A DNA stretch of 64,000 bases from Prorocentrum cordatum (taxonomy: Eukaryota > Sar > Dinophyceae > Prorocentrales > Prorocentraceae): NCBI GenBank assembly GCA_963575745.1, contig CAUYUJ010015024.1, forward strand, positions 1 through 64,000, written 5' to 3'. The position numbers and the translations under genes are program-made. The notes beneath the pieces were generated by a model. That model did not search any database, had not been told where the DNA came from, and was given only the letters and a program-made list of their open reading frames with translations. This document shows, piece by piece, positions 14,986 to 56,990 of this stretch (position 1 is its first letter; every line of letters starts with the position of its first letter).

Positions 14986-14989
14986 CATG

Positions 14990-37200: not shown

Positions 37201-38050
37201 GTCGGAGGTTTGGGGAGGGGGGGCACGTGTCGCACTTGGCGGAGTAGGGGCCTGTTCTGGAGGCGTCGCTGCCGAACCGCCCGTCCGTGATCCTGGGTGC
37301 TGGGATCGTGGTGTTCGTGGGCCGGGGGGCGCGTGGTCCGGCCGGGGCCATGAGGAGGTCGCCCAGACGCATGGTCTCCCTTCAGGAGGGGTCGCGCCAA
37401 TATCCCAAGGGCCCCCGGCAGGAGGGCAATGGGGGGGCGTGGGCGACCGGGCCCTTGTCGCGTCCGTTCCGCCGCGTTGTGTTGTCGGAGACTTTGGCTG
37501 CGACAGTCGCACCTGTAGGCCTCGGGGTGCACTGGATGTTGAGATGCGCCGCCCAGCAGTTCTCGCATAACCATCTGAGGTTCTCCCGCCCAGGTAGGCC
37601 TGCGGCCTGTTGCTGGCCAGAAGGTCTCTGACCGAGTCGTCCTCCCAGGTTCCGTCGGTGTACTTCAGCTTGTAAGTCTGGCGTCGGTCGCAGGTGAAGG
37701 CAGCGTTCTTCTGGTCGCAAAGTAGCCGGCCATCGGCGATGGTGGCGGGGTTTAGCTTCGTGCCTGGCGCGGGAGCGGGAGGAGTGGAAGACGACAGGTC
37801 GGTTTTGGAGAGGGCTGTGCCCCCCGACGCGCCCGGTGGCAGCGTCAGCCCTGCTCTCTCCTGCGCCGAGTCGGACCCGGCCAGGGGGGTGTGTAGGGCG
37901 CAAACTGAGCACTCGAAGTCTGCGAGGGGGTCGAGGTGCGCGGGGGGGGGGCGATTGCCTCCAGGACCAGCATCGGGGCTTTGAGATTGAAGTCGGCCCT
38001 TTCCATGCCACTCCAGGTCTGGGGGCGCTCCGCCTGCTGATGAGGATGCT
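37190..38050 (-). pseudogene. Cysteine-rich module part 1, second copy, frameshifted
   Basis: Minus-strand translations, in three frames, read TWSGMERADFNLKAPMLVLE, then CSVCALHTPLAGSDS, GTWEDDSVRDLLASNRPQAY, LRWLCENCWAAHLNIQ, and finally ITDGRFGSDASRTGPYSAKC and DTCPPSP. Each matches the fuller copy at 44,283-45,132 (TWAGMQEHDFTLEAPLRALE; CSICQLHKALTGSDV; GTWEDDDTREVLAQNRAQAH; CRWLCEQCWAS; LTDGRFGSEVHL) in the same order. One frame change lies near the G run at 37,942-37,950. Homology stops at CPPSPNL, at the GGATTGGTT minisatellite. The paired cysteines suggest a metal-binding module, but the function is unknown. Confidence 0.7.
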
Positions 38051-39439: not shown

Positions 39440-39855
39440 CTATTCCTCACCAATCGCGTGCCTGCGTGCAGCAAAGGGGCGTTTGAGGACCAAAGGGCTG
39501 CCGACCCACTGGGCCCCGCATGGCGCAGAGGGGTCCCATATGGCCCACAGGGTCAGCGCGATGGAGACCACTTTGTATAGGGGGGTGGAGGCTGTCCCCA
39601 GCTGCCCGAGGTCGATGTTGCCCAGGAAGCAAGCGCTGCGTTCCGTGACGGGCTGAGTGGCAACTTGGAGAATTGACATGATCGGGGGGGAAGAAAAGGT
39701 CTTGAGCCGCAGACGAGCTGCACGGGCCAGCCCTTGAGAGAACGGGGAAGGGGCAAACGTGCAGGTGGGAAGGCGAGTAGCGCACATACCGACTGTTCCC
39801 AGTCAGGAGGGCCGACTCCCCCAGCCCAGGCCTGGGGGGAAGTCCCATCCCCGAT
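39440..39855 (-). CDS. Tail of the Gag-like region, unknown
   Basis: The minus frame reads IMSILQVATQPVTERSACFL, GNIDLGQLGTASTPLYKVVS and IALTLWAIWDPSAP before a stop at 39,440. It looks coding and lies directly downstream of the Gag-like frame, in a different frame, so a frameshift near 39,700-39,860 is likely. No family is recognised. Confidence 0.4.
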
Positions 39856-39863
39856 GGCGTTTG

Positions 39864-41048
39864 TCAGCGTAGTGGGTATTCCCTCTGGGGGAAAACCGTT
39901 TCCCCCTGGCCCTCCAGTCTGCGTCGACCCATGTGTCCTGCAGGTGGTCCCACACGCCCCAGGATTGACGTGAACCCCAGGGGGCGGCCGATCCTGATGC
40001 GCCTGTGTGTGTGGCAACTCTGTAGTCGGTTTACAGTGGGGGGGGGCCATGTAGCCTCTTTGCTCTCGTTAGCCCACGGGTTCCAGCGTCCTCCTCCAAT
40101 GGGCCCTCCCGAGGCAGCTGCCTGCAAGGCGCCTTTGTCGTCGGCGGGCGGCGGGGGGGTGCTGGGCGCGCCATTGTCCTCGTCGGCCCAAGGCCAGCGA
40201 CCGCCTCCGATGGGTCCTTCGGGGGTGCGGTTTTTCGTGTCGCGCTGTATGAGCTTGCGCTGCTTGTCCATGATGTTTGGCCATTCAACCTGGAGCTGGT
40301 ATTCCTTGTCCATCCTGTAGGCATCATAACCTGCTTTGCCCCATGCCTGGAGGAAGTCGTCGCACTGCTGCACCATATTTTTCCCGGGGCCGGACTTGAT
40401 GTTGACCCATGAGCCCCCTTGCTTGGTTCCTGCCTTACGGACCCAGGCACTCCAAACTCCGTTGAAAACACCTCCCAGCGTCTTCTGCAACCTTATGATA
40501 TTGTCCGGTGCTGGCTCGTCCCTTGTGACATTTGCTTCATTGATGGGCCGCAAGTACATGGGGAGACCACCCATGGGGTCATCTGGGCGCGCTGGTGGGA
40601 TTGTTGCTGACAGCGCGTCGCGCTCCCGCCCCGAGCTGAGTTGTTGCCTGGGCGAGCTGCGGGGCGGAGGGGAAGAGCGACCTATGGGGGAGTCTTCGGG
40701 AATAGTGGGAGGTCGGCGGTCTGCTTTGTTCTCCGTTAGCCTGAGCTTCCTGCCGTCACTGACCGCGTCTGCGAAGACCCGCGCATGCGGGGTCCAGGCT
40801 TGCGAGTCGACCCTCAGGGGGGGTTGGGGCCACAGGGGGGGAATGCTGCGGGCGGACTCACGGTTGCACGGTCCTGGAATGTTGGCATGCTCTACCTGGT
40901 GTGCGGGGCTGGCCTGCACCTCGGAGCCGGAAATGTCTGGCGGGCTTCCGCGCGCCTGGCCGTCCGGCTTGGATCCCTTGTTGGACTCATCCCAGTCGAG
41001 ATCTTCATCGTCGCCGCCGCCGCTTCCGTACTTATATGGGGACGGCAC
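39864..41048 (-). CDS. Gag-like protein of the large element
   Basis: A 394-codon minus frame. The N-terminal ~60 residues are acidic (GGGDDEDLDWDESNKGSKPD), followed by a Pro/Ser-rich region. The middle has a helical domain reading IIRLQKTLGGVFNGVWSAWV and FLQAWGKAGYDAYRMDKEYQ. The C-terminal third carries a repeated motif, GPIGGGRWPWADE and GPIGGGRWNPWANE, about 35 residues apart. The middle domain has a decayed relative at 14,990-15,300. There is no zinc knuckle or protease. Its role is inferred as nucleoprotein from place and composition. The frame probably joins the one ending at 40,892 across a 17-G run at 41,093-41,109. Confidence 0.55.
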   Translation of the reverse strand: MPSPYKYGSGGGDDEDLDWDESNKGSKPDGQARGSPPDISGSEVQASPAHQVEHANIPGPCNRESARSIPPLWPQPPLRVDSQAWTPHARVFADAVSDGRKLRLTENKADRRPPTIPEDSPIGRSSPPPRSSPRQQLSSGRERDALSATIPPARPDDPMGGLPMYLRPINEANVTRDEPAPDNIIRLQKTLGGVFNGVWSAWVRKAGTKQGGSWVNIKSGPGKNMVQQCDDFLQAWGKAGYDAYRMDKEYQLQVEWPNIMDKQRKLIQRDTKNRTPEGPIGGGRWPWADEDNGAPSTPPPPADDKGALQAAASGGPIGGGRWNPWANESKEATWPPPTVNRLQSCHTHRRIRIGRPLGFTSILGRVGPPAGHMGRRRLEGQGETVFPQREYPLR

Positions 41049-41114
41049 GTCTCCTGCGCACCCGTCGGACAGGCCTGGTGCGACCGTTTGTTGGGGGGGG
41101 GGGGGGGGGCGCGT

Positions 41115-41690
41115 GGCAAACTGCGTGTAGAGAGGTAAGGCCAGACTGTTCCTCCTGGGGTCTGTTGAACTGTGGGGGGACCTCCTTTAACAGTGCCGCT
41201 GGTCTTTGCCACCTTGGGCTGGCCGGCGAGGAGCTCTATCGTTCCTCCTGAAAGGTCATCCTCCATCCCTGAAAGAAAGAGGGTGAGTGTGCTCAATGGC
41301 TGTCGGTGGGGGCACTGTCCTTTCTGGTTGTCGAGTTTGTCTGCGAAGCATTTCCATTCCTCCTGGTACTTCGGATTGCTCTCCACTAGGTGTGCGATAA
41401 CCCTGGCAGCCGCGGCCCTCTGTCCGTCCCAGGGGATGCGCGGGGGATGGCCGTTGCTGGGAATGTCATCCCCGTAGACAGTTTCCAGAAAGGGCGCCAC
41501 CTGTTCGAGGGGCCACCCGCATTCGTCGGTTACCTCGCCCACAATGTCTCTTCCCAAGCGCTGTGCGTGGGATGCCCAGACGGTGTAGATTGCGTGGCCC
41601 CACTCAATCAGGTATTTTACCAACGCGCGGACAGGGCCTCTCGACTCATCCCCTGCCAGACGGAGGGTGGAGTGCGTGGGGAGTGACGGC
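41115..41690 (-). CDS. Region upstream of the Gag-like module, unknown
   Basis: The minus frame 41,623-40,892 reads YLIEWGHAIYTVWASHAQRL, DECGWPLEQVAPFLETVYGD, and AARVIAHLVESNPKYQEEWK. It then passes into Pro/Lys-rich sequence and meets the 17-G run, beyond which the Gag-like frame takes over. The first ~130 residues look like a compact helical domain. A weakly similar segment lies in the decayed copy near 16,500. No family is recognised. Confidence 0.5.
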
Positions 41691-41953
41691 GCAGTGGGCG
41701 GTGGTAGGTCGGGAAGCGAGTAGCTGAGGGTGACCCCTCCAGCTGAGGCCCCTTGTGGCTGCCCGGTAAAAAACTATGTTAACCGGCTATCGTCTGTTGG
41801 AGTTGGTGTGTCAGGGCCTGCGGCTAACGCGCGGCTGGTTGTGGAAAGGTGCGCGGACATGTCGTAGATGCACCATTCCTCTGTGATATCGTTCATGGCC
41901 GGCCTTTTAGTCGGGGAGGCTGGGTATATCTCGCTGGAGCACTGGTCAAGTAT
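41691..41953. other. Linker between cysteine-rich and Gag-like regions
   Basis: The minus strand is open for most of its length and Pro/Ser/Thr-rich (LSYSLPDLPPPTAPSLPTHS), with a stop near 41,780. It probably encodes a disordered linker of the large element. Confidence 0.35.
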
Positions 41954-42225
41954 TCAATCGGGGGCGCTTGGGGCGACGTCCCAGATGTGCACCAGGCACC
42001 TCCTGCATGCCCAGCCGGCGCCACACTTCCTCTGGATCCACAGCAGGGGCATTGCGTCCCACGGCGGGAGGCCTGTCTGCTCGTCGCAGTCAGCGTCTGC
42101 CTCTGGGCGCCATATGAAGCAGCCAAGGGCCGGCGAGCCTGGCGACCACTCTAGCAAGGGGGAACAGGGGGGACAGGTGTCCCAAGAGGCCGAGTATAGT
42201 TGGGTGAGGTGCACTTCGGAGCCGA
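41954..42225 (-). CDS. Cysteine/tryptophan-rich module part 2
   Basis: The minus frame reads SEVHLTQLYSASWDTCPPCS, PLLEWSPGSPALGCFIWRPE, then LPPWDAMPLLWIQRKCGAGW and CRRCLVHIWDVAPS. It includes CPPC, a spaced Cys pair and CRRC. It continues the module at 44,283-45,132 once the 2.08-kb insertion is removed, and it matches the decayed copy at 16,890-17,170. The CxxC pairs suggest zinc binding, but no named family fits. Confidence 0.6.
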
Positions 42226-42295
42226 CCCAATCAGAGCTTGCCTCTGTAGGGGTCATCGCGGATATAAAGCTGAGGCGAGGTGGGCGGCCGACTTC

Positions 42296-42465
42296 GGTGG
42301 CCGGGGCCGGGTGCCCGGGGGTTCCCAGGGGTGCCCGGGTGCCCAGGTGTGTGGCCGATTTCTGTGGCCGGGGCCGGGTGCCCGGGTGCCCGGGGGTGCC
42401 CGGGGGCGCCCGGGTGCCCAGGGGTGCCCGGGCGCCCGGGGCGCCCAGAAGTGCCCGGGGGGGCC
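42296..42465. repeat. GTGCCCGGGG minisatellite
   Basis: Irregular repeats of GTGCCCGGG and GCGCCCGGG, with a larger duplication built on GGCCGGGGCCGGGTGCCCGG (at about 42,299 and 42,372). Confidence 0.9.
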
Positions 42466-42599
42466 TAGCCCAATAGCCCTATAGCCCTATAGCCCAATAG
42501 CCCAATCGCCATATATCCCTGTAGCACTATAACCCTATAGCCCTACAGCCGTACCTATACGACCATCCTTCGGGTGATAAGGAGGTTCGGGGGGGGGAC

Positions 42600-42815
42600 C
42601 AACGTCTCACTCGATCGGTCTCACTATCGATCTCAATATCGATCTCACTATCGGTCTCGCTCGATCGATCTCACTCGATCGATCTCACAATCGATCTCGC
42701 TCGATCTATCTCATTCGATCACTCTCAATTGACCTCACAATCGATCTCACAATCGATCACACAATCGATCTCGCATTCGGTCTCAATATCGATCTCATTA
42801 TCGATATCACAATCG
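42600..42815. repeat. ATCGATCTCAC repeat
   Basis: About sixteen copies of a 10-13 bp unit such as TCGATCTCACTA, TCGATCTCACAA and TCGATCTCGC, containing the ATCGAT palindrome. Confidence 0.9.
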
Positions 42816-43615
42816 CTCGCACAATCAACGTCATCATCATCATCACCATCAACATCATCGACATCATCATCATCACCAACATCGTCACCATCATGGGGGC
42901 ACCGTCATCATCATCATCATAAACATCATCATCAACGTCAGCATCATCATCGGGACAACATCATCATCATCATCAGCATCCTCATCATCACCATCATCAT
43001 CTCAACATCATCATCATCACCATCGTCGGGACACAGTCATCGTCATCATCATCATCACCATCACCATAATCATCATCATAATCGGGACACCGTCATGATC
43101 ACCATCGCACTCATCATCAACATTATAATCAACATCGTCATCATCCTCGGGACACCATCACCATGATCATCGCATCATCATCATCGACATCATCATCATC
43201 AACAACATCATCATCATTGGGGCACCATCATCATCATGAGCAACATCATCATCAACATCGTCATTACAATTGTTATCATCATCGTGACAGCATCAGCATC
43301 ACCATCATCATCAGCATCATCGTCGGGACACCATGATTATCAACATCGTCATCAGTATCAACATCATTATCGCGGGGACACCATTTCCGTCAACACCATC
43401 ACCACCAACATCATCGGAATCATCATCATCATCATCATCGGGGCACCATCATCGTCCTCATCAACATAATCATCATGAGCATCCTCATCATCATCATCAT
43501 CATCATCGGGACGCTATCATTATCATCATCGACACCATCATCATCATCATCATCATCTTCATCGGGAAACCATCATCATCATCTCATCATCACCATCATC
43601 ATCATCATCATCCTC
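42816..43615. repeat. CATCAT array with ~62-bp higher-order unit
   Basis: CATCATCAT repeats are punctuated at fairly regular spacing by TCGGGACACCATCATC or variants, near 43,025, 43,082, 43,147, 43,217, 43,324, 43,374, 43,439, 43,507 and 43,561. The spacing of roughly 50-70 bp shows a higher-order unit on top of the triplet. Frames give His, Ile or Ser runs only. Confidence 0.9.
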
Positions 43616-43835
43616 CTCGCGGGACACCGCGGGGCACCGGCGGGGCGCCGCGGGGCACCGCGGGACGCCGGCGGGGCACCGCGGGGCCCCGCGCCCCGGA
43701 TGAGAAAGATTTGGCCCGGCCGCGCCTCAGCCACTGGAGGACGCCGCGGGACACCAGCGGGGCACCGCGGGGCCCCGCGCCCCGGAAGAGAAACATTTGG
43801 TCCGTCCGCGCCTCAGCCACAGGAGACTTTTTCTC
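43616..43835. repeat. GC-rich ~95-bp tandem duplication
   Basis: Two copies contain GGGGCACCGCGGGGCCCCGC, GCCCCGGA, GAGAAA, ATTTGG and CCGCGCCTCAGCCAC (about 43,673-43,733 and 43,760-43,830). They are preceded by shorter GGCACCGCGGG units. Confidence 0.85.
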
Positions 43836-43944
43836 GCCCGCCCACGCAGCTTCGCCTCGCACGCACGGCACGCACGAACACGGAACCGAAACCGATGCCC
43901 TGGTGGGGGGCTCGTCGTTCCACTTCGATCTCACCCCCTCACCT

Positions 43945-44238
43945 CCGATAGCCCTATAGTCCAATAGCCCTATAGCCCAATAGCCCCATAGCCCCATAGC
44001 CCTATAGCCCTATAGCCGTATAGCCGCATAGCCCTATAGCCCTATGGTCCTAACGCCCTATAGCCGTATATAGCCCTATAGCCCGAATGGCCTTATAGCC
44101 CTTAGCCCTATAGCCCTGTAGCCCTATAGCCCCATAGCCCTAAAGGCTTCTAGCCCTATATCCCTATGGCCACATCGCCCTATAGCCCTATAGCCCCATC
44201 GCCCCGTAGCCCTAAAGCCCTACAGCCCCATAGCCCCC
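43945..44238. repeat. TAGCCCTA octamer array
   Basis: About thirty-five copies of TAGCCCTA, TAGCCCCA or TAGCCCAA. A shorter array of the same unit lies at 42,470-42,545, so the unit flanks the other satellites on both sides within the insertion. Confidence 0.95.
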
Positions 44239-44282
44239 CCTCAAAAAAATCGGATTGGGGTTTTTCTCTGGTATCATTGGCC

Positions 44283-45132
44283 GAGGTGCACTTCGGAGCC
44301 GAACCTGCCGTCGGTGAGCCTGTGTGGTTTGAGTGTGGTGCCTGCGCTGGCTGGTTGGAACTGGCGCGGCGTGCGCATGAAGAAGTTCTTCAGGGAGGTT
44401 GGGGCTGGGGCGTCGGTAGGCTGCCCGAAACCCAGCGGTAGTCTGGACAGAGGGGGGGGGGGTCCTGGCTCTCTTGCGTGCACGGTCATCGTCCACTCTG
44501 CGCTTGTACTCCTGTAGTAGCCACTGCATGGACTTCTTGGTGCTACGCTCGGTTGTGCTGGGCACGGGGACGTGCACCCCCGTGCTTTCCAGGGAGCTGG
44601 CCCAGCATTGCTCGCAGAGCCACCTGCAGTTCTTGCCCTCCGTGTGCGCCTGAGCTCTGTTCTGGGCTAGGACTTCCCGGGTGTCGTCGTCCTCCCAGGT
44701 GCCTGCTGCTCCATGCATTTCTGTGTTGGTGCATCCGTCGCGGTTGTAGGTGGCGTCCTTCTGCAGCCTGCAGAAGCGGTCGTCTCGAACGATTGGGGGG
44801 GGCAGTGTTGTTCCTGGGGCCGGGGTGGCCGGGGAGGCCGGGATGTCCTCGTCGAGACGGTGGTTGGAAATTGCAGCCCCGCCCCCTATGTACTGCAGGT
44901 CCTCCATGGTGTGTGGACTGCCAAGCCCCACGTCTGATCCCGTCAAGGCCTTGTGCAACTGGCAGATGGAGCAGTCTCCACTGCTTAGCTGCTTGACGTT
45001 CGCGGGCTGGACTATTGCCTCCAGTGCGCGTAAGGGGGCCTCGAGGGTGAAGTCATGCTCCTGCATTCCTGCCCATGTCCTGGGGCACTCGTGCTCAGCT
45101 GCGATCTCGTGATGATGAGCGTATGTGGCCAA
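44283..45132 (-). CDS. Cysteine-rich module part 1 of the large element
   Basis: A 306-codon minus frame, in which residues 18-40 read PRTWAGMQEHDFTLEAPLRA, residues 54-57 are CSIC, residue 121 starts CRLQKDATYNRDGC, residues 145-162 read GTWEDDDTREVLAQNRAQ, and residues 169-176 are CRWLCEQC. A basic stretch (KRRVDDDRARKRARTPPP) follows, then a Pro/Ser-rich linker leading to the insertion. At least seven cysteines are conserved in place with the second copy at 37,190-38,050. The order of CxxC pairs and basic residues suggests a nucleic-acid-binding zinc module. That is inference, and no named family fits. Confidence 0.6.
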
Positions 45133-46071
45133 CGTGCTGATGTGGTGAATGACCTGCCGTAGTGGGGGGAGGCGAAGTCCGCGAGCTGGAATCCCCGAGT
45201 CTCAGCGAACTGGGCGCGGAACTCTCTGTGGGCCTCCTGCCATGGAAGGCACAGGCCCATCGCAGCTTCTATGACGTCGCCCGTGGCCTCTGGGAATGGG
45301 GAGGGCCAGAGTGTAGCACGAGGCTCACGCAGCTGCAGCATCATCGCCACCAGTAGGACTCTGAGCGCGGGGGGACTGAGGGGCTTCCCATCGCCTCCTA
45401 GTAGGGCATGCGTGAGATCTGTATCGATCTTTTCGGGGCTGAGCAGGGAGTGCAGATGCTCCGTTCCCGGGTGCATCCTGTGGCGTTTACACAGGCAGGT
45501 GTTGCTGCTGCAGGCCGCGGGGAACTGGGGGAGTGTGCCCTCGGGGGTGCAACGGCTCGAGGGCTTGGGGCGGCGATTGTTCCCGATTCCCGACCATGTG
45601 TGGCAGTGGGGGGAGCGATTCATCGGTGACGCCCAGCTGCTTGTCGTGCCATGGTGCGCCCAGTCCGAGAAACCAGACCAGGGCCGCCCACGCGAGGTTG
45701 CACACAAGGTTACTGGCATCGATTCCGACTTCCACGTCTAAGCAGTACCCTAGGTGACTCCAGGCCTCCCTGTCTAGGCTGCCTGGCTGCCTGGGCGTGG
45801 CCCCCATGTGCCACTGGTGGGGATGTAGTCCGGGCACTGTGTAGAGAATGATGCCCCATGCAGGGTCATGAACCAGCTTGCTTCCGCATGCTGTCTGCGA
45901 GGGCAGCACTTAGCTTGTCCCAAGAGAACTGGGGGTCGAGTGGTGCTGCGATACGGTCTGCGAAGCTGCTCTCCATTCTGGCTTTGGCCTTCTTGATGGC
46001 GTCGCCAAGGCCTTTTTATGTTGTCGTCCCCTGCGTGGGTGGGGGCGGGGGGAATCCACGTCGTAAGGTCA
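45012..46071 (-). CDS. Linker region between helicase and cysteine-rich module
   Basis: Three minus frames together give plausible protein: SFADRIAAPLDPQFSWDKLS near 45,950; WGIILYTVPGLHPHQWHMGA and ASNLVCNLAWAALVWFLGLG near 45,830-45,680; then TDLTHALLGGDGKPLSPPAL and EATGDVIEAAMGLCLPWQEA at 45,420-45,230. A cysteine cluster (CSSNTCLCKRH) lies near 45,500. Frame changes fall near 45,900, 45,690 and 45,160. No domain is recognised. Confidence 0.45.
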
Positions 46072-48464
46072 TCAATTGGGGTCGAATGCCTTGTCGATTT
46101 GAAGCAGCGCTCTCTTGCCCAAGTTGGTCCCCTGGAAGCGGACCAACAGTTTGGCAAGCCTCCCGTACTCCGAGAGTTCCCCCAGGTGAGCTCCTGTGGC
46201 GGTGCCGAACATCCTTCCATCCCCGATTGTGACCACATTGGAGGTGGCACGTGTGATTGCAACGTTCAATCTGTTGGGATTGTCCATGAAACCCCAGTCA
46301 TGCCAGCTGTTGGATCGTGTGGTCAGGAATATCACTATGTCGGCCTCCCCACCCTGGCTTGAGTCAATGGTGGAGATGGTGAGTCTGCCGTTGGCAAAGA
46401 ATCCTTCCGCAACTTGACGTAGCCCCAGGAAGCGTAAGTCGATCCCAGTGAGGGGGGAACTCCATTGCTCGAACACGCGCTCGTGCCCCTTGAAGTCGTC
46501 GCGTTCGGGGGGGAGTGTGGTGCAGTCACTTGCTTTGGCTGTTCCACCTTTGCCGCTTCCTTTCTCCTTGGTCTTGGTCTGCCCCAGGGCGCCGCTGATG
46601 CTGCGTCCTGTCTGGGGCCAGCCGTTCTCAAGGGCGGTGCGCTGCAACTGGTGGCCAACCACGACGCGCACTGTAGTGCCCTTCCCCATGGCGGGCAGGA
46701 GCGCACGCACGATGTCCACTGTCTGCGCGGCCTCTGGGAGGTTCGCGTAACCTGAGTGGAGGTTGGATGAGACCTCGAGGGAGGGGTTGTCAACCAGGGG
46801 AAACCGATGCCTCTCCTCTGGCCGCTGGGGAGGGGGCTGGAGGTCCCTCAGTAACTTCTCCAAGTCCTCCGAGGTGGTGGCAGTGGATTTGGCCAGGTCC
46901 TCGAGCCTCGCACTGCCCCAGGGCAGTATCTCCCGCCATGGTAGTCCTTCTACCAGCGGTCTTTGCTTGAGGGGGTCCGTGGGGCCTGTCCGCATCGACT
47001 CGTTGTAGAAGACCACGTTGGGCCAGGACAGAAGTAGGGGGTGCATGCGGTAACAGAGGCTCAGTTGCACCACTGCTGAGGTGCCCTCACCCAACGCGTT
47101 GTGCAGCCGGTCGAATATCGAGAGACACAGCCCGCGGTCGGCCGCCTTTCTGGAGAGGACGGTGGGGGGGCGTTGTTTGGGGTCGCCGACCAGCACCAGG
47201 TGCCCGCCTGAGCGTATGACGCTGTCGAGAGACATTGCGGCCATCAGTTCGTGAGCTTGTCCTGCTTCATCAATAATGAGCAGGGCTACTGGTGCCGCGA
47301 GTTTGAGGGACTCTGCCGCCTCATGCGTGGCGATGATCGTCTTTGCGTCCCTCAGCAGCTGCGCGCGGAAGGCGATAAATTCCTTCGAGGGTCCACTCTG
47401 GTGTGCGGAACGGTTGTGTGTTCTGTGAAAATGTCCACCTGGCGTGAGCGGGCCAAACTTCTGCGCAACTCGTAATCTTTGGCCAGCCTAACGCACCTGT
47501 TGGGGAAGCAAGTCCCTTGTGCTAGCCTGCCTGCATCGTGCGCATCCCCTAGGCCGATGGCAGGTTGGTCGGCGGCTGTGTTCGACCCTGCAGTGAGGGC
47601 CACCGCCTGTCCGTCGGGGAGCGAGCTTGCCCACGCGTCCATGGTGGCGACTGAAAAAACAGTTTTGCCAATCCTGGGGGGCCCGTGAACCACCGTGACG
47701 TGGTGCTGTATGGTGGCGACAAGGGCCTTCGTCGCATCCTCGTTGAGTCTGTGACGTCTGGCGCCCTCGTCCAGAGTGGTGATTGGGGGGAGGTCCCTGA
47801 CCCGCTGAAATACCTGACCCGTAGCACTGTCAACCTCCTCGTCGGAGAAAGGGGTGTCTGCTGGCCCCTCGCTCTGCTGCTGTTGATCTGCCGTGCTACT
47901 ACCCTCACTTGCCGGGGGTCGGCCGGGTGCCTGGGCCCTCATGGTGGCCCCCGCCCGCGAGAGGAGGGAGCTGCCGCACGTCCTGGTATTTGCTACGTCG
48001 TTGGCCCGCACCCTGTCCTTTCCGTCGATGGCGCGGTGGTTGAGAAGGACGGAGATGACGTCGAGTGGTGTGCCCACCAGGTCGTCTGGGGCCTGCTGCA
48101 GCTTGTAGATCTCGCCGATGGCATTAGAAATCCGCCAGTACTGCAGCTTGGGGGGAGCTCTGTCCACTCTGTACAGCACGTCACCCTCATTGTCCGGCTT
48201 CGAGCGCGCCCCGTCCGGGAGAAATTCCCCAGCCTGCCCGGGGTCGCAACAGGCCAGGGCTTGGTTGGTGGGGTACTTGGTTCCTGCTCGTAATCCCATG
48301 ACTTCGCACTCGTTGGGGGGAATGGTGCCTCCGAGGTCTGGGGGCCATATGAGTTGAGGGAGGCAATCTGGTCCGCCGTTGGGCTGGTGATGCTGAGAAG
48401 CAATGTCCGCGCCTCTTGTCCCCCTTCCAAACCTCGGAACAATACCTTGAACTCTATCGGCCAT
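46072..48464 (-). CDS. Superfamily-1 helicase, UPF1-like
   Basis: Two minus frames joined by one frameshift near 47,390 give a full helicase core. The first frame (48,464-47,352) has a Walker A motif GPPRIGKT at residues 261-268. After the shift comes LLIIDEAGQAHELM (motif II, DEAG, about 47,265). The second frame (from 47,244) has LVGDPKQRPP (motif III), VVQLSLCYRMHPLL, TISTIDSSQGGEADIVI (motif V) and NRLNVAITRAT (motif VI). This set and order are those of UPF1/SMUBP2-type helicases, which unwind RNA or DNA 5' to 3' using ATP. The N-terminal 230 residues contain DVLYRVDRAPPKLQYWRISN and an acidic linker, but no UPF1 cysteine-histidine domain. Walker A departs from the usual GPPGTGKT. Its position in the element suggests a role in replication or target opening, but that is inference. 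Confidence 0.88.
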
Positions 48465-49617
48465 TGCAGGCGTTGCAGCAGCTTTCCGTCATGGGGGGGA
48501 ATGCGTTGCGGAGCTTGTACTTGTCGCGGGGCACGCAGGGGGAACGCTCGTTGATGGGGGTGGCCGCCACGGCCAGGGCGCAGCTCTTCCTTTGTGCCAA
48601 GTCTGTTCTGACCTTCGCGGAGACGTCCCATACTGTTTCTGTGGCTGCCATGCACTCGGTCCAGGCCAGCCTGTTCAGGGCGCAACCTCTTTGCCGTAGA
48701 TCCTGCTCCCAGTGTTTTGGAAGGTTGACCCCGGTGGGGACCGTGCCCGCGGGGGTGTGCAGGCGGAATTGGGCCCCTGGGCTGCTGGCGGGTAAGGCGT
48801 AGAGCCGGGTGATGGCGTTCGCTGCTGCGGCTGCGGATGACTCCGAGGTTGTCTGCCCGTCCTGGGGGGGAAAGTCGCATGTCCAGTCGTCCCCAACTCC
48901 GCGCGGTGGACCCGCCCGATCTGATGGGTCCTGCGACGAGGCCCTGCTGGAGTCGACGCGTCTTTCCCTCGGGACCGGTGAGGCAGAGGGCACCCCTGCT
49001 GCGGTGGGGTTCGGGGGGGGCGGGGCCGTGCCCCCCCAGGCTCCGGTGGTGCGAAATGGGGTGACCCCCCAGCCCTCCCGGTACTGGCTGGGCGACCGTA
49101 GGTCTGCCGAGTGCACGGCGTCGGTGGAGACGGAAAAGTTGAACTTATCATCGCGGAAGGGGAAATTGACTGGTACGTGGCCCCAGTCTTCGGTGAAGGT
49201 CCAGCCTGGTAGGTGTACCTGGGTGCCGTCCTTGACTGGGGCCGGCAGGTGCCAGCCTGGCCATAGGCGTCGGGCGATGGTGTTGCCAGTAATTATGTCC
49301 ACGCTCTTTCCCAAGGTCCTGGTCCAGAGATTGCCTTGCTCAGTATACAGCCCGGGGTCTGGCCACCCAGACTCCTCCTGCTTCTCAGCCTCTGTGGCAT
49401 GGCCCCCTCCCAGGAGGCGCCCCTTGCCTTCGCAGTATATTTGGCCCCCCGCGCACCACCAGCCCCACTCGCGGTTGAAATGCGCCCATCTGACCCATGG
49501 GCATTCCCGCGCGCGGAAGGGACGGGGGCCGCCTGATGCGCCAGGGCCTTTTTCACAGGGTTCAGCGGGGGAGGGCCATCTGGCCAGTGGCCCGTCGCTG
49601 CACTTCTTCTCTGGCAT
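48454..49617 (-). CDS. Trp/Cys-rich region between RNase H and helicase, unknown
   Basis: A 387-codon minus frame. Early on it reads WVRWAHFNREWGWWCAGGQI, YCEGKGRLLGGGHA and SVDIITGNTIARRLWPGWHL. A middle segment reads LPGWTFTEDWGHVPVNFPFR and DDKFNFSVSTDAVHSADLRS. A Pro/Ser-rich linker is followed by a helical part, CALNRLAWTECMAATETVWD. It ends FPPMTESCCNACNGR at a stop, where a one-base shift at the CCCCCC run near 48,495 would lead into the helicase frame. No family is recognised. It may be a helicase N-terminal extension or a separate fold. Confidence 0.55.
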   Translation of the reverse strand: MPEKKCSDGPLARWPSPAEPCEKGPGASGGPRPFRARECPWVRWAHFNREWGWWCAGGQIYCEGKGRLLGGGHATEAEKQEESGWPDPGLYTEQGNLWTRTLGKSVDIITGNTIARRLWPGWHLPAPVKDGTQVHLPGWTFTEDWGHVPVNFPFRDDKFNFSVSTDAVHSADLRSPSQYREGWGVTPFRTTGAWGGTAPPPPNPTAAGVPSASPVPRERRVDSSRASSQDPSDRAGPPRGVGDDWTCDFPPQDGQTTSESSAAAAANAITRLYALPASSPGAQFRLHTPAGTVPTGVNLPKHWEQDLRQRGCALNRLAWTECMAATETVWDVSAKVRTDLAQRKSCALAVAATPINERSPCVPRDKYKLRNAFPPMTESCCNACNGR

Positions 49618-49859
49618 CCTGGTGGAACGGAGGGGGGAAGTGCAGCCGATAGCTGCGTAGCTGGCAAATGGGCGTGCGGGGGGGCGGCTTGAGCCGCCAC
49701 AGCGAGGACCTCAGTTGTCGCGCAGATCGGTCGATCGGCGATCAGATTGGGGCGGGGCGGAGAGGGGGGGGGGGGGGGGTGCTCGAGTAGGTGCGCAGCC
49801 TCAGCCGCCCCGATGGGGTCGCAGAGGTTGGTTTCCCGTAGGTTGATATTGGGAAAGTG

Positions 49860-50408
49860 CGCCGGCGGGGAGGGGGCGCCACCTGCCCAGCGCGCGTGTG
49901 AGGTGACAGCGGCCACGCCTTCCCTGCGGAGGGAGTCCGCCCAGTATACCCCAATGGTGGCAAGGCTGTCTGCGGCTTTGTTCAGTCTCCGCCTGACCGC
50001 CTGCCACGTGAGTATCCACCCATCACTTTCTACTTGTCCTAAGGCGTCCTCCATTTGTTGGGCCAGGTGGAGCCTTCGGTATCTGGCGGTGCCGGCCCCG
50101 TATCGCACAGCTGCCAGGTTGTCGCCCACTACTCGTGCCGTCCGGATTGGGCCTCTGAGGTGGGGGAGTAGTGCCGGTCCAGCTCGGCAGCCTGCCACCT
50201 CTGCCATCTGCGCATTGCCGCAGTCGGGGAGTGCGACGATGGCTATGGCAAGGGCCCGAGGGGAACCGGCGTTGGGGCTGCGATGCCAGAGAATGGTCCC
50301 GGCGCCAGAAACTTCCCCCCCACCTCCGATGGACCTTGCGCCCCCGTCGAAGGTGACCTGGCATGGCCATTGGGTGGAGTCGGAGTCAGGGAAAGGCGAG
50401 CTGCGCAC
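49860..50408 (-). CDS. RNase H domain of the large element
   Basis: The minus frame starting at 50,408 reads VTFDGGARS (catalytic Asp at residue 21), then MAEVAGCRAG (Glu 70), ARVVGDNLAAVRYG (Asp 96) and RRRLNKAADSLATIG (Asp 147). These are the four acidic positions of a retroelement RNase H, which removes RNA from RNA/DNA hybrids. The domain is followed by a Pro-rich tail that stays open to 49,293 in the same frame. The G run at 49,765-49,778 does not break it. It lies 3' of the RT as in I- and LOA-type LINEs. Confidence 0.85.
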
Positions 50409-50468
50409 CGTGACCTCATCGCCTGGCTCGAGCCTCGCGTTGGCAGTTAGAGTGGTGGTGTGGAGCCT

Positions 50469-52562
50469 TCACTCCCGGCCGAAAGCAGAGGACCAACTGG
50501 CGGTGGGTGAGTTGTCTGTCCTTGGGCAGGGGAACCAACTCCTGCCCGGAGGCATCCCTGCAGCACGCGTTTCGGGGGCTTGCAGGACCACAATTATGTC
50601 CCCTGGGTTGTGGTGTCTAGTGGCAACCGGGAGTCTGCGAATCTCGCCTCCTGCCCTGCCCGCGTGTCGCTGCGAGCGGGGCCTAGCAGCGCCGCGGGCG
50701 GATCCTGCGGGGGTGGGGCAGGGATTGCACGTGCGACAGGCGTCCCGCAGGACGGTCCATACAGCTGTTTCGTCTGGATTGCTGCTCCTGGTGGGCTCGT
50801 CGCCCCCGTGCTCCTCCTCCTCGCTCTCCTCCTGATGGTCAGCGTCGAGGGTTGCTAAGCCGTGTGGGATGAGTCTGGCGGCTTCGGCGGCTTCGAGGGG
50901 GGAGGCTGTGAGGTTGACGCAGTATATGAAGGAAATCTGGTGTAGTACCTTGGCGAGCAACGGCTGAGTGTCGCCGTCGCTGACGATGGCTAGAGCGAGG
51001 GGCGGTGGGTCGTCTGGGCCCCGCATGGTGCCCCAGGCGAGTGCTGCGGCTGGGCACCAGTGCCAGACGTGTTCCGCGGTCGCTTCTCCTAGCCCACAGA
51101 GCGGGCAGCTCCCGCGCGGCCCGCTCCTACTGGGCGGTCGAAGGCGCCCCCGCGTGTTTGCATAGGCTTCTGCTTGAGCCCTTAGGGAGGGGGGTAGTGC
51201 ATTGGGGGGAAGGGTATGCCAGAGGGCGAATGCGCGCGGGCCGGTGCCGATGCATCTTGCGCACCAGGCCGCTCCACCGTCGCTAGGGCCGGCGGTGATC
51301 CACGCGTTTCTGGCAGGCGCGCCGCAGGGACACCTGTGGGGCATTTTTTCATTGTCTCCTCTGCGCCTCGCCGAGCCAGGACGGCCGTTGCTGAGGATCC
51401 CGATCGCGTGGTGTGCCCTGGTGAAGGAGGTGCAGTGGCGGAGCAACTGCCACTCCTCCCCGTTGGAGGGCTGCCATCTCCCCCCTTGGCTGGTGTCCAG
51501 GAGCCATTTTGTAAAGTGCCGGCTGTTCATCTGGGCCCATGCCGCAGCGCGCGAGATCCTGCCGAAGTGTTTGCCTTCAAGGAGGTTGGGCTGTTGCTTC
51601 GCGAGGAGCAGTGCCCGGGCGGCCTTGCGTTCGGAGATCATCTCGGGCCGAGGGGGGAACGTCTCGGGCACCTGCGCCGCGCGGGCCCCCCATGTCAGCA
51701 ACTTGTTCCACCTGATGCTTGCTCGCTTCTTGACGTTACTGGGCCCCCAGAGGTCGTCGAGTGCGAATGCTCTTGCGGCGACCGCGCGGGCCGTCGCGAC
51801 CGGGCACCTGGGAGCGCCCTGTACTTGGAAGCGGATGCCAAGCCCCGCCAGCGCAAAGTCGGGGGCCCATGGGGCCCCGGCCAAACCGAGAGCAGTCCTC
51901 AGCTGGGCCCGTAGCTCACTCTCTTGCGCCGTGTCGGGGAGGGCATAGTGCGCGGCGCAGGGGGCCAGGGAGACCAGGTGCGCGTTCCAGGCCGCGGCAG
52001 TGCGAGAGGGGGACATGTTGGCCAGATGCAGAGGGGCTCCTTCCTTGGTTTTCGGCAAGGGACGGTCCCAAGTGCCTTTGCATAGGGCCTCCTCCTGTTC
52101 CTTGGTGAGTCCCCCGTCCTGCGGGGGATCGTCGCCTTCTGCGGCGCGGGGCGCCACCGCTGCCCCCAGGTCGGGCCGCTGATCTCTAACTGACGAGCCT
52201 CCAATGGGGGCGTGGTCCATTAGGGTGCGCCACCACTCTTGTTTGCCCGCTGGGGCGAGCGCTGTCTTAAAGGTGCAGTTGCAGGCGCGCTGATAGGGGG
52301 GGCGCCGCCAGGGGCGGCAGGGCCCTGCATTGCTTTCCGAGAGTGCCTGGGTGAGTTCGCCCGGGGGCCCAGAGATGAGCACGCTGTCCCCGTCCTGTTC
52401 GAAGTGGACAGGTGCTTCCTCCAGCGCGGCTCGGAGGGCCGGGGAATCCTCGGCGCGGATTCCCCTGCAGCGGTGGGCCTCGACCAGGAGCCCAGCGGCC
52501 TTGGCAGCCCAGGGGAGGGCGATTGCTGCGCGTAGCGCCTGCGTCGTTGCGCTGACCAAGGC
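50469..52562 (-). CDS. RT C-terminal (thumb) region and zinc knuckle
   Basis: This continues the frame that carries RT motif C. It is about 700 codons with no stop. It includes the presumed thumb (RQAL, LLVEAHRCRG), then HFTKWLLDTSQGG, a cysteine cluster HRCPCGAPA and WCARC, and near 51,060-51,110 the zinc knuckle CPLCGLGEATAEHVWHWCP, typical of the zf-RVT motif after LINE reverse transcriptases. An acidic run (HQEESEEEEHGGDE) and a second cysteine pair (CRTCNPC) follow before the stop. The RNase H follows in a different frame just downstream. Confidence 0.75.
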   Translation of the reverse strand, partial: ALVSATTQALRAAIALPWAAKAAGLLVEAHRCRGIRAEDSPALRAALEEAPVHFEQDGDSVLISGPPGELTQALSESNAGPCRPWRRPPYQRACNCTFKTALAPAGKQEWWRTLMDHAPIGGSSVRDQRPDLGAAVAPRAAEGDDPPQDGGLTKEQEEALCKGTWDRPLPKTKEGAPLHLANMSPSRTAAAWNAHLVSLAPCAAHYALPDTAQESELRAQLRTALGLAGAPWAPDFALAGLGIRFQVQGAPRCPVATARAVAARAFALDDLWGPSNVKKRASIRWNKLLTWGARAAQVPETFPPRPEMISERKAARALLLAKQQPNLLEGKHFGRISRAAAWAQMNSRHFTKWLLDTSQGGRWQPSNGEEWQLLRHCTSFTRAHHAIGILSNGRPGSARRRGDNEKMPHRCPCGAPARNAWITAGPSDGGAAWCARCIGTGPRAFALWHTLPPNALPPSLRAQAEAYANTRGRLRPPSRSGPRGSCPLCGLGEATAEHVWHWCPAAALAWGTMRGPDDPPPLALAIVSDGDTQPLLAKVLHQISFIYCVNLTASPLEAAEAARLIPHGLATLDADHQEESEEEEHGGDEPTRSSNPDETAVWTVLRDACRTCNPCPTPAGSARGAARPRSQRHAGRAGGEIRRLPVATRHHNPGDIIVVLQAPETRAAGMPPGRSWFPCPRTDNSPTASWSSAFGRE

Positions 52563-53430
52563 AGCGAGATCGTCGACGCACGCGGGGTCGCCACCCCCCG
52601 TGATGGAGGAGATGGCTGAGATGAGGGGGTCGTACCCCATGCTCCAGAGGAGAGCGGGGGCAGTGCCCCCATCCCGACGGACCTCAGTAGGCGCTGTTCA
52701 GGACCTCTGTACTTTCCCTTGCATGTCATCACTCTTCGCTCGGCAAGTTGAGTGAGTGAAGTAACCGCGAGGGGAGCTTCCACCTCCGGAGGAGGCTATC
52801 TACCCATTGAAATGAAATTCTTTCGAAGGCCTTATTCTGGTCGCAGGAGATGACCGCCGTGCACGGGGCGTCGCCCACAGCGGAGGCGGCTCGGTGGACA
52901 AAGGCCTCTGCGACTGCTGTGTGTTGCCCAGGGGGCGCGGTCCACCCAGGACCTGGTGCCTCTGGGGGGTTGGGGGGGCGCTTAGGTGCCGGGTCACCTT
53001 CGACATGTTGGGGCCGCATTGCCCCCCCGCTTGGCCGCCTGGTTGGGGCCCAGGAGCGGTTCGACAGCTGGGCCAATTAGGTCGGCCAGGGAGGCGCCGT
53101 GCAGCCGCCGTATGCACGTGGGGAGTCATGTCGTTGGGGCCTTCCGCACCAGGCTTTTTCCTTATCCGAACCAGCAAGTCGACGGAGGGCCCCAGCACCT
53201 CTTCGACGAGTGATGGGTAAAGGTCAGCGGCGTACCAAGCTTGGGCAATGAGGCAGGCAACGAACCTTGCCCCGGGATGATATGCTTCGTAAGGTACCCC
53301 ATCCACCCCTGGGGCGCTCCCGCTGGGTGTGAGAACGGCAGTGGCGAGCTTGGCCCACCTAGGTCTGGGTCTGCTGGAGATCTCGATCCCAGGGTGCTCT
53401 TGGAAATAGAACTCACGTATCCTACCGGCG
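52563..53430 (-). CDS. LINE-type reverse transcriptase
   Basis: Minus-strand frames give SAPGVDGVPYEAYHPG (the APGxDGxPYE motif, about 53,330-53,280), LLVRIRKKPGAEGPNDMTP (about 53,170), AVISCDQNKAFERISFQWV (motif A with catalytic Asp, about 52,850), a GMGGTAPALLWSMGYDPLI region at the place of motif B, and ACVDDLAAL (motif C, CVDD, about 52,583). The Cys in place of Tyr/Phe before VDD is unusual but not disabling by itself. Frameshifts lie near 53,070, 52,790 and 52,650. The enzyme would copy the element RNA into DNA at the target site. Confidence 0.88.
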
Positions 53431-53432
53431 GA

Positions 53433-54173
53433 TCATGGTAGGGTGGGGGCGGAATGCCATATCGCACTGCGACTGTCCCAAAGGACGTTGTCGATCTGGT
53501 TTGGCCTGTCGTGCCATGTGCCGTTGTGGTCACGAACGCCTGGGATTGCGTGGGTCTTCTTGTAGATCTCCCGCCCTGTTCTGTTGTGGGCCGCCAGGGG
53601 GGAACGCTCCGCTCCCGGGCCTCCTTGCGAGGGGGGCAGTCGGGCTGATCTTCTCTGCGTGACCTCGGCGCCCCAGGTCCTGAGCCACCGGCCAGCCTGC
53701 TCAGGGGTTCGGTCTTGCCCGTCCCACCCGTGCTCATACAGCCAGGCTGCCAGAACTCCCACTGGGCGCGTCGTCTCTCGTTGTTGACTGGCAGTAGCGA
53801 GCAGCAGGCCTGGGGAGGCTCGCGTTCGGTGCGCTCTCCACTTCTTCCACCAGTCCTGCAGAGCAGATGAGAGGGCGTGCCTGCCAAACCTCATGAGGGC
53901 GGGGAGGATGGGCGGGGTGGGCTCGTCGCCTTCTGGCCCTCTTGGCGCGCGGGGGTCCGCGCCGGAGGGGTTGTAGGAAGTGTCGCCATCGTCATTGTCC
54001 GGGCGTCGGTCGGGGAACCCACCGGGACGGGCAGGTCTAATCCAGTCAGTAGGTTGGATAAGGCCGCTCAGGTTGACGGGCGGCATGCCAAAGGAGAGCT
54101 CTAGGTGAGCGTACAACTGTCGGAGCTCCACGTGCGCCGCGGTCGGGGGATTCCTGGGGTCGGCAGCTTTCAT
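53433..54173 (-). CDS. Linker between endonuclease and RT
   Basis: A 246-codon minus frame beginning right after the endonuclease SDH motif. It has an N-terminal helical part (AHVELRQLYAHLELSFGMPP), an acidic Asn/Asp-rich stretch, then SALQDWWKKWRAHRTRASPG, and ends with EIYKKTHAIPGVRDHNGTWH. Such linkers with basic helices are usual between the endonuclease and RT of LINEs. No separate domain is recognised. Confidence 0.6.
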   Translation of the reverse strand: MKAADPRNPPTAAHVELRQLYAHLELSFGMPPVNLSGLIQPTDWIRPARPGGFPDRRPDNDDGDTSYNPSGADPRAPRGPEGDEPTPPILPALMRFGRHALSSALQDWWKKWRAHRTRASPGLLLATASQQRETTRPVGVLAAWLYEHGWDGQDRTPEQAGRWLRTWGAEVTQRRSARLPPSQGGPGAERSPLAAHNRTGREIYKKTHAIPGVRDHNGTWHDRPNQIDNVLWDSRSAIWHSAPTLP

Positions 54174-54214
54174 GGTGTCGTCCCTTCTGGCCCTTCTCGC
54201 GCCCTGTGGTTCGA

Positions 54215-54880
54215 GTTAGATGAGGGCATGGTCCGACAGCGTGAGTATCCACAGCTACCGGGTTTCATAAGCATATATGTGTTGGACTGGGCAGGCACAC
54301 GTGTCAATCTGCGACTCGTTCTCCTTGTCAACTCTAATGGGGCCTGGCATGTGCATGGCGGCTGAGCCGGAGCTGGTATGTCTCTCAGGAGGGCTGCTGC
54401 CTCCAACTCTCCGTATCTCGGGTGCTCAAGCTGTAGGTTGACATCCCCTCCCCAGTATGTGTCGAGCGGCTCCCACTGCTCGGTAGCTATGGCGATACCA
54501 ACGAGGGTTTCCTCCTTTCTGGTAGGGGGAGGTACACTGACACAAGTCGAATCCTCCATTCGCCCAGCTGCACAACCGCGGCAACGGCGCAACCAGGGAC
54601 AAGGGCTTGCTGTTCCAAGAGGGGAATACCATGCGGGAAGAAGATGCCGACTCCTCCGGCGAGTCCTCCAGCAGGTCCAAGGTGCCCGGGTGAGGCCACA
54701 AGGGTCCTCGCAGGAAACATGGTTCTCCACACTTCAGTTTCATGTTCGGACCAGTGTGTCTCCTGAATAAGGGCGATCCTGCTATTCATCGTGACCTGGG
54801 TCAGCAGAGCGTGCTTGATCTGATTCTTTCCGGCGGTGCAGCTTCTGAGGTATCTCACGTTCCAACAGCTGAATCTGGGT
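54215..54880 (-). CDS. EEP-type (APE-like) endonuclease
   Basis: Minus frames read FSCWNVRYLRS (Asn of the LxxxN motif, 54,873), RIALIQETHW (catalytic Glu), GVGIFFPHG, RLVSVYLP (Tyr), then after a frame change DTYWGGDVNLQ (GGDxN, about 54,445), and after another LSDHALI (SDH, about 54,230). These are the successive motifs of the exonuclease-endonuclease-phosphatase family that nicks target DNA for LINE integration. Frame changes lie near 54,520 and 54,290. All catalytic residues are present in one or another frame. Confidence 0.85.
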
Positions 54881-55460
54881 GGGCTGTTAGGGGGGGTGGC
54901 GTTGAGAGCTCGCATCACGTCCTCGAGTGAGAGGCTACCACACATGCTATCCCATGTGGGCTGCGTCCAGGGGTCAGTGCGTAGGAGAGACCAAAAGGCT
55001 TCTTGGTCCACGAAGCTTGTGTTGACACTTGGCTTCGAGCGCTTCGTTGAGCGCGCGCCGTGCCTGCGCCCAGGCGAGGGTGCGAATCCCCGGCGCAAGT
55101 ACGTGGCGGGGGGGGACCCCAACGCTCGGTGGAACGTGTTGGGGTCCCTGGTCGAGTCTAGGGGCGCGTCGACTCGGGAAGGAGGGCTTCCTCGCGCCTT
55201 ATCTGTTCCGCGATGTCATCTGGGAACGGGTGGTTTCTGAACTGCGCCCACGGGCATTGCCTCCCAGCGTATGCTCGCGCTGTTGCCCATGCGAGCGCTA
55301 TCTGGGCGCCCGTCGGAGCGGGGGAGCAGGCGGGCGCCTGTCGCATGAGGATACACGAAGCGTCAAGAATTCCCACCGGCCCTTTGGGCGTGAGTGGTTT
55401 AGCGAGCTCTCTCTGTTCTCAACCCCCCTTCTTCCCCTTCGGGGAGGGGTTTACCTGGAG
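54881..55460 (-). CDS. N-terminal segment of the large element, 5' end undefined
   Basis: Two minus frames with a shift near 55,155 read ALAWATARAYAGRQCPWAQF, DIAEQIRREEALLPESTR and then VDQEAFWSLLRTDPWTQPTW before the endonuclease. The leading part overlaps the dispersed repeat 55,378-55,450, so this may be the 5' end of the element or part of a longer truncated N-terminus. A related fragment lies at 6,256-6,549. No domain is recognised. Confidence 0.45.
55378..55450. repeat. Dispersed repeat shared with 6,464-6,535
   Basis: Both copies carry CCCAxCxGGCCCTxTGGGCGT, a GGT(T/C)TAG segment, CAACCCCC, TTCTTCCxCTTCGGGGAGG in the same order and spacing, in the same orientation. They are 49 kb apart. 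Confidence 0.75.
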
Positions 55461-56150: not shown

Positions 56151-56990
56151 CTTTCTCTCCCTCCTCCTCCGCCTCGTCCTTCTCCCGCTCCCACCACAAG
56201 GAGGATGTACAAGGAGGCGGGAGGAAGGAGGAACAGGGGAGATATGCGGGGGCAGGCGGACACACGCCTGAAAAACACGACTGTCGGCATGCTTCGCTAG
56301 AGTTGCTGCTTTGAGATGGGCTGGTGGGGATACGCGAAGCGTGACTGGACAACTCGGAAAAGCAACTGCGATGCAGTCACATTTTTGGGGCAAGGTCCGG
56401 CGTTATTTCGAAATGAGCTCGAATTAATCGGGTCCCTTGAAGGGTTTCCTCTGGCGCTCCTGGTAGGTTGGGGGGGTCCCGCCCGCCGTCTGATGAGGAA
56501 GGAGGGAAAAGTCACTCGATCCCTGACAAAAGAGGGTACCTAACGTACATGGGAATATGGAGTCCAAGCGTACCTACTTCCAAACACCGATGGGAAATAT
56601 CCCTTTGTTGTTTTTTGTGTTCTCTCTCTCTCTCTCTCTGTCTCTCTCGCTCTCCCTCTCTGTATCTCTCTCTCTTCCGTTCTCCATCTCCTCCGACTTC
56701 GGCTTGTCCGTCCTCCGTGGCGTTCACTCCACGCACCAACGTCCTCTTCCTTGTCTTCGCATTCCTCCTCGTCCCGCTGCCTCTCGTCCTCGTTCCTTTT
56801 CGTCCCGCTCCTCCGCGTCCCCTACCCCTCTCCACCTCCATGGTCCCTCCGCCTTCCTTCCCCCCTTCCCCACCGCCTCCTCATGCCCCTCCTCCTCCTC
56901 CTCCGCCCCCCCCCTCCTCCCACGCCTCCTCCCGCCTGCCTTCCCTCTCGTCGCCTCCTCCCCCCTCCCCTGCTCCAAACGGGCGCCCCC
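56151..56990. other. Mixed stretch with CT-rich tracts, no supported gene
   Basis: Bases 56,615-56,690 are CTCTCT-rich, and 56,850-56,990 are CCTCCT-rich. A short minus island at about 56,745-56,700 (TLVRGVNATEDGQAEVGG) looks coding but stands alone. Confidence 0.4.

Follow-up and report, generated by a model that had tools for sequence, protein, structure and literature searches.

Can a long interspersed nuclear element (LINE) carry a helicase of its own? The question is raised by the window, by which we mean the whole 64,000-nucleotide stretch analysed here (positions 1 to 64,000 of contig CAUYUJ010015024.1), in which endonuclease, reverse transcriptase (RT) and RNase H sequences are followed on the minus strand by a superfamily 1 (SF1) helicase. 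An earlier note, made from the letters alone, had read positions 46,072 to 55,460 as a LINE-like element with a UPF1-like helicase, possibly a single polyprotein running on with no non-coding gap. Comparison with the genome of the window makes it almost certain that this element is a degenerate copy from a site-preferring LINE family of high copy number, with a unit of at least 20.7 kb comprising an upstream coding region, an open reading frame (ORF) for endonuclease, RT and RNase H (ORF A), a separate helicase ORF (ORF B), a 3' untranslated region (UTR) and poly(A).

LINE and helicase as one mobile element

The search space was the genome of the window (4.13 Gb, 21,875 contigs; the window itself is contig C14175). 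A Pfam AAA_12 profile search across it served as the starting point and gave 271 matches, many partial and of one repeat-like kind; 90 of those listed, picked as partial, repeat-like AAA_12 C-terminal matches, were used, and 20 copies (L numbers below) were retrieved, L010 being omitted as identical to L009. RT, helicase and upstream-ORF queries were scored against the best 117 of 3,946, 70 of 3,267 and 92 of 80,846 candidates, and 117 of 119, 70 of 71 and 92 of 93 matches were kept once secondary pieces of one place had been removed. The counts that follow hold among the matches listed, where the absence of a locus carries no meaning.

RT and helicase lie 5,201-5,312 bp apart in 22 of 31 same-strand pairs, upstream ORF and RT 6,532-6,658 bp apart in 34 of 48, and upstream ORF and helicase 11,791-11,928 bp apart in 19 of 24; opposite-strand pairs no more than 40 kb apart number one for upstream ORF and RT and none for upstream ORF and helicase. 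In related copies, Pfam finds Exo_endo_phos_2, RVT_1 and RVT_3-like domains, then AAA_11/AAA_12, and copies align across ORF A and helicase as single stretches of 8-19 kb whose indels are small (85.7% over 13.3 kb in one case, 95.8% over 19 kb in another), the alignments of L022, L024, L026 and L028 being shorter or split. The divergence of the helicase parallels that of RT-RNase H (r 0.997 over 21 pairs, from 14 copies entered, eight of them with all three regions, and with the window region placed by a fixed offset).

The most direct footprint is L018, a 12.1-kb 5'-truncated insertion that starts inside the RT ORF right after GTATCTCCA, runs through the larger part of RT and on through RNase H, ORF B and 3' UTR to poly(A), and is followed by GTATCTCCA again, a 9-bp target duplication. 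The same 3' terminus is present in five copies, with an A-rich run following in L012, L018, L019 and L023 and a TA repeat in L013; no long terminal repeat (LTR) occurs there, the 5' end lying outside the retrieved DNA. The exact 3' end followed by AAAA occurs 830 times in the genome, against 0 for a reversed control. In L023 the poly(A) end of such an element adjoins a copy resembling that of the window, the arrangement that a nested insertion would leave. L012 was considered as a 5'-truncated copy and rejected, since 12 kb separates its RT from the end of the helicase; it is interrupted instead. Rfam searches of the 3' flanks of three copies returned sub-threshold matches only. The element combines the marks of a LINE: a non-LTR-type RT, an APE-type endonuclease, 3' poly(A), 5' truncation and target duplications (the full pair in one copy).

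Recurrent order and spacing, the single alignments and the L018 insertion together establish that endonuclease-RT-RNase H and helicase are one mobile element and not two neighbouring genes. The recurrence of RNase H and helicase at conserved spacing, which the earlier note had proposed to look for, was found; copies with a clean end behind RNase H and with target duplications, which it had named as evidence to the contrary, were not seen among the few ends read.

Insertions also share a target. CCACC falls within 20 nt of the 3' end in 497 pattern matches (a count that includes at least one place, C5369, listed twice), compared with four for the GGTGG control, and we therefore regard the element as a site-preferring LINE whose insertions share a target sequence. 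The 14 printed matches of 3' end plus target mostly read GTATCCCCACC or near variants, and GACGCTTCGCGTATCYCCA-like half-sites precede L018, L024, L026 and the window copy where these begin. The target motif, TTGACGCTTCGCGTATCCCCACCAG, is often followed by CCCATC; it has more than 11,000 copies in its 19-mer form (CTTCGCGTATCYCCACCAG; 11,756 exact copies in the genome, reversed control 0), and its flanks vary between the few sites read.

Two reading frames and a cellular-type helicase

In relatives, ORF A spans about 1,800 aa and encodes, in order, an APE endonuclease, RT, a Cys-rich region and RNase H, the endonuclease lying upstream of RT within the one ORF. Eight relatives in ENA (P0121-P0128), probably environmental in origin, are 35-61% identical and 1,485-1,815 aa long and end at RNase H or soon after; P0121 is a single protein of 1,811 aa. 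Pfam matches on L009 were Exo_endo_phos_2 (9.4e-7), RVT_1 (7.3e-9) and, below threshold, RVT_3 (1.3e-3); RVT_3 was found in two of the eight relatives, at best at 7.1e-9. A profile search with ORF A matched an R2 retrotransposon protein (2.7e-8) and L1-type endonuclease (2.1e-6). Searches for relatives in IMG/VR, phage records and GTDB contigs confirmed none.

Further upstream, coding-looking sequence with no Pfam match belongs to the unit. On contig C13378 the distance from the furthest upstream 3 kb to the end of ORF B is 20.7 kb, hence the minimum size given above, and the unit would reach about 22 kb if a 3' UTR like that of other copies is added. Two oddities were seen here. In L027 about 5 kb is deleted internally and one 1,906-aa frame joins the upstream ORF to the end of RT and RNase H; at G000:C14516:308905-310002(-) the upstream-ORF match, which itself contains one TAA, falls in a reported open frame of 5,646 aa.

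ORF B, which in L009 measures 2,502 aa between stops, consists of an N-terminal region, the SF1 helicase and a long C-terminal region. Sequence conservation across 14 aligned copies (picked from 18 measured) covers the TGA that follows a C-rich tract, the spacer and the ATG of ORF B, and the TAA in the ACTAAGG of the spacer is kept in 13 of the 14. As read, ORF A terminates at the conserved TGA in seven of 18 copies (L009, L015, L016, L020, L024, L026, L027), the remaining 11 having earlier frameshifts or different stops. Between this TGA and the ATG, the ORF B frame contains a stop in L009, L015, L016, L020 and L026 and is open further upstream of the ATG in L011, L024 and L027; stop and ATG are 83-112 nt apart in L009, L015, L016, L020, L026 and L027. 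A single polyprotein is therefore unlikely and we reject it, along with the gapless junction of the earlier note; ribosomal tricks at the C-tract may occur, and the spacer might, as a guess, hold a spliced-leader acceptor. The 3' regions of L009 (about 13,767-16,000) and L020 contain stretches, about 280 and 700 bp long, that are repeated in part.

By motifs and fold the helicase matches the cellular SF1B helicases UPF1, SEN1/SETX, IGHMBP2 and DNA2, with 22-27% identity in structural alignments. We assign it to this group, not to UPF1 itself: SEN1, IGHMBP2 and DNA2 are about equally close, which removes the particular kinship to UPF1 suggested by the earlier note, and the N-terminal CH zinc-binding domain of UPF1 was not found by Pfam (E<=1) in the ORF B N-terminal half plus helicase of three copies. 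A virus-type helicase is rejected on Pfam scores, AAA_12 (2.5e-29) and AAA_11 (6.5e-26) being far stronger in L009 than Viral_helicase1 (8.4e-5, just above its cut-off). In the helicase tree, for which 36 of 120 listed relatives were used, the stem is long (2.4 changes per column), and long branches blur the origin of the helicase. Searching proteins with the N-terminal region of ORF B gave no relatives among candidates of about 700-2,240 aa, a range that lies below full-length ORF B, and the predicted structure of the C-terminal part was unusable (predicted local distance difference test, pLDDT, 29.6).

Selection has left its mark on both frames. At dS 0.2-1.2, median dN/dS (nonsynonymous to synonymous rate) was 0.086 for endonuclease, 0.123 for RT, 0.146 for RNase H, 0.194 for the ORF B N-terminal part, 0.144 for helicase and 0.178 for the ORF B C-terminal part, the pairs having copies in common and not counting as independent. 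In pairs with dS no higher than 0.15 it was 0.32-0.53. This is what dead copies derived from constrained sources show, and the helicase, which is copied in the same RNA, is under purifying selection about as strict as that on RNase H. The ATPase motifs are retained in at least 15 of 20 copies.

The copies in the window

The window holds a 5'-truncated, decayed copy (copy 1; 38,050-55,345, minus strand, as are all features below unless stated), with ORF A and helicase spread over several frames with stops and frameshifts. Its 5' junction at 55,345 is abutted by the target half-site GACGCTTCGTGTATCCTCA (55,346-55,364), similar to those of L018, L024 and L026. An APE-type endonuclease remnant, the beginning of ORF A, lies in two frames at 54,392-55,167, as judged from tblastn of P0121, Pfam on L009 and the L1 endonuclease match of the ORF A profile; RT, thumb and the Cys-rich part, with in-frame stops, occupy 50,469-54,368 by homology to relatives and the ORF A profile; the RNase H end (FDGGAR...) is at 49,794-50,468 by homology. 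P0121 aligns to 55,167-49,794 and is 48.6% identical across a 1,546-column piece; in the window copy itself Pfam gave RVT_1 only below threshold (0.071) and no endonuclease or RNase H match. What the earlier note observed is confirmed, with corrections.

About 100 bp separates the ORF A matches from those of ORF B, whose first part (44,524-49,692; several frames, within aa 4-1743 of the L009 protein) covers by homology the N-terminal region, the helicase and the start of the C-terminal region. The helicase core, from motif I to motif VI, lies at approximately 46,219-47,730 on motifs, Pfam and homology. Every motif named in the earlier note was recovered within 46,075-48,488 (GPPRIGKT, IDEAGQ, GDPKQRPPT, TIDSSQGGEAD and RLNVAITRAT), and its SF1 assignment is upheld by AAA_12 (8.5e-28) and AAA_11 (1.2e-13) in 46,075-47,487, with a further AAA_11 match below cut-off (1.9e-4) in 47,355-48,488. 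A simple-repeat block of (TAGCCCTA)n, (TCA)n and others, to which no strand is assigned, follows at 42,233-44,523 according to a repeat scan and homology; the same 8-bp repeat (TAGCCCTA/ATAGCCCT) is present in it twice, at 42,466-42,550 and 43,948-44,236. ORF B then resumes by homology at 40,239-42,232 (aa 1808-2156 plus 2330-2429), and because it continues past the block (44.5-42.2 kb) the copy extends to about 38,050, its probable 3' end, marked by an A-rich tract at about 38,055-38,050.

A second ORF B fragment (copy 2; 13,776-38,040, by homology) ends in AAAAGA (13,781-13,776). Its two pieces, aa 1560-1845 at 38,039-37,160 and aa 1830-2499 at 17,134-14,889, probably belong to one copy; the roughly 20 kb between them (37,160-17,134) apparently represents later insertion(s), possibly piled up. 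In order, GTATCCTCA stands before copy 1, GCATCCTCA after its A-rich tract, and GTATCCTCA again after AAAAGA. The last of these, the 3' target duplication (13,767-13,775), is identical to the final 9 nt of the 5' half-site, and GCATCCTCA (38,041-38,049), which resembles it, would separate the copies. We infer two tandem insertions at one target, with later insertions inside. The extent of the element is corrected accordingly, from the 5' half-site at 55,364-55,346 to about 38,050, with the second fragment reaching 13,776 and both 3' limits placed with less certainty. An unoccupied target-like site with two mismatches (56,323-56,345; motif scan, 0 expected from shuffles) lies nearby.

A possible role for ORF B and its relation to known LINEs

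Taken as a whole, a helicase-bearing LINE in which ORF B assists copying is the probable explanation. ORF A would nick DNA at the motif TTGACGCTTCGCG-TATCCCCACCAG and prime reverse transcription on poly(A) RNA, often halting early and so giving 5' truncation; this enzymology is taken from established LINE biology, and the footprints themselves are shown for L018. The ORF B protein would join the RNA-protein particle of the element and act as a motor, unwinding structured parts of the very long RNA and/or stripping RNA from cDNA together with RNase H, so that long copies could be completed, its expression perhaps depending on reinitiation or on spliced-leader trans-splicing at the spacer. That ORF B is such a motor is a tentative proposal, to which we give slightly less than an even chance.

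Several observations weigh against this explanation or parts of it. In a blind test of 900 bp at the predicted helicase place in eight of the 70 RT loci for which no helicase was listed, the helicase was present in four (main pieces 78-94% identical), one was all N, and three of the seven readable loci lacked it. Two listed RT/helicase pairs are in the wrong order or strand. The 5' end of the element was not found, and of 41 listed matches of the furthest retrieved 3 kb (best 40 of 401 candidates scored) 36 begin at its first base; of eight copies with retrieved downstream DNA, four showed the 3' terminus and four did not, and it was not seen in L009, L016, L017 and L027. Only one full duplication pair was read outside the window, that of L018, and no half-site was seen at L011, L022 and L028, whose matches also begin inside retrieved DNA. 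The helicase model is modest (mean pLDDT 56.7; 334 of 850 residues at 70 or above), the GC content of the element (63%, flank 61%) makes a GC-rich template a weak argument, and a conserved helicase is compatible with several roles.

Among these roles, the main rival, which we consider unlikely, is that the helicase shields element RNA from host defence, be it RNA silencing or nonsense-mediated decay, rather than aiding reverse transcription. With several ORFs on one RNA, a long distance separates the ORF A stop from the 3' end, as is typical of decay targets, and the fold belongs to the UPF1/SEN1 group; for insect LINE helicases, silencing suppression has been proposed and a UPF1-like quality-control role also raised (PMC5563155, PMC6338049). 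Neither the equal distance to SEN1, IGHMBP2 and DNA2 nor the failure to find the UPF1 zinc domain in three copies favours it. ORF B might instead be mainly a structural or RNA-binding particle protein, its helicase core kept for binding and not for unwinding: some three quarters of its length falls outside the core and the measured parts are constrained (dN/dS 0.18-0.19), yet the ATPase motifs are preserved, and we hold this to be improbable.

Other rivals deny the unit or its mode of spread. Segmental duplication with the helicase as passenger could appeal to the identity of L009 and L010, to some other contigs that look duplicated and to the 19-kb match of L009 and L020, both ends of which lie beyond retrieved DNA; the common 3' terminus with poly(A) in differing surroundings, at 830 such ends, and the varied 5' truncation points at one target motif led us to reject it as very improbable. 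Two adjacent host genes, or two mobile elements often side by side, would account for the separate ORFs with their spacer and for the three blind-test loci, but this is already contradicted, and scarcely credible, since order, strand and spacing recur, single long alignments and parallel divergence tie the parts together, and the truncated L018 insertion spans both, with a target duplication and with poly(A) after ORF B.

Insertion at a repeated motif, apparently also in tandem, is a trait that the present element has in common with target-specific LINEs (R1, R2, Tx1, Utopia, TRAS and others); unlike theirs, its target is a short motif whose flanks vary among the few sites read. UPF1 proper shares the SF1B motifs and fold, as do SEN1, IGHMBP2 and DNA2.

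That LINEs can carry SF1 helicases has been published for insects (PMC4686597, PMC5563155, PMC6338049), which limits the novelty assumed in the earlier note. TRAS LINEs of the R1 clade have a tobamovirus-like SF1 helicase as the C-terminal domain of ORF2 (Lazareva et al. 2015, PMC4686597); as in the present element, it lies downstream of endonuclease-RT, is preceded by a spacer of more than 300 aa and occurs in dozens of copies. In Jockey LINEs it is ORF1 that encodes an SF1 helicase, virus-like and, as here, with its motifs conserved (Morozov et al. 2017, PMC5563155). The insect helicases are thus fused into ORF2 or ORF1 and of virus type (Viral_helicase1), whereas the one described here is unfused, as the stop, spacer and ATG of the 14 aligned copies indicate, and set apart by its stronger AAA_12/AAA_11 scores; unlike TRAS, it occupies a separate 2,502-aa ORF after RNase H, belongs to the UPF1/SEN1 group and forms part of a unit that measures at least 20.7 kb, the host being probably a protist. 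The top listings of searches among open-licence papers held no UPF1/SEN1-type helicase in a LINE, no helicase-bearing protist LINE, and no combination of a cell-type helicase in its own ORF, a protist LINE and a unit this large. The chances seem evenly balanced that this is an undescribed protist LINE lineage which long ago, on a single occasion, acquired a cellular-type SF1B helicase to serve as a dedicated replication protein, and with it escaped the usual LINE size limit to become site-specific, with three or more ORFs and more than 20 kb.

LINEs usually depend on the host for everything beyond endonuclease and RT. A LINE with its own selectively maintained SF1B helicase makes it possible to test whether unwinding sets a limit to how far target-primed reverse transcription can run, and also whether LINEs have recruited helicases repeatedly, of virus type in insects and of cell type here. 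The size of the element and its target motif, moreover, bear on the build-up of a 4-Gb, repeat-rich, dinoflagellate-like genome.

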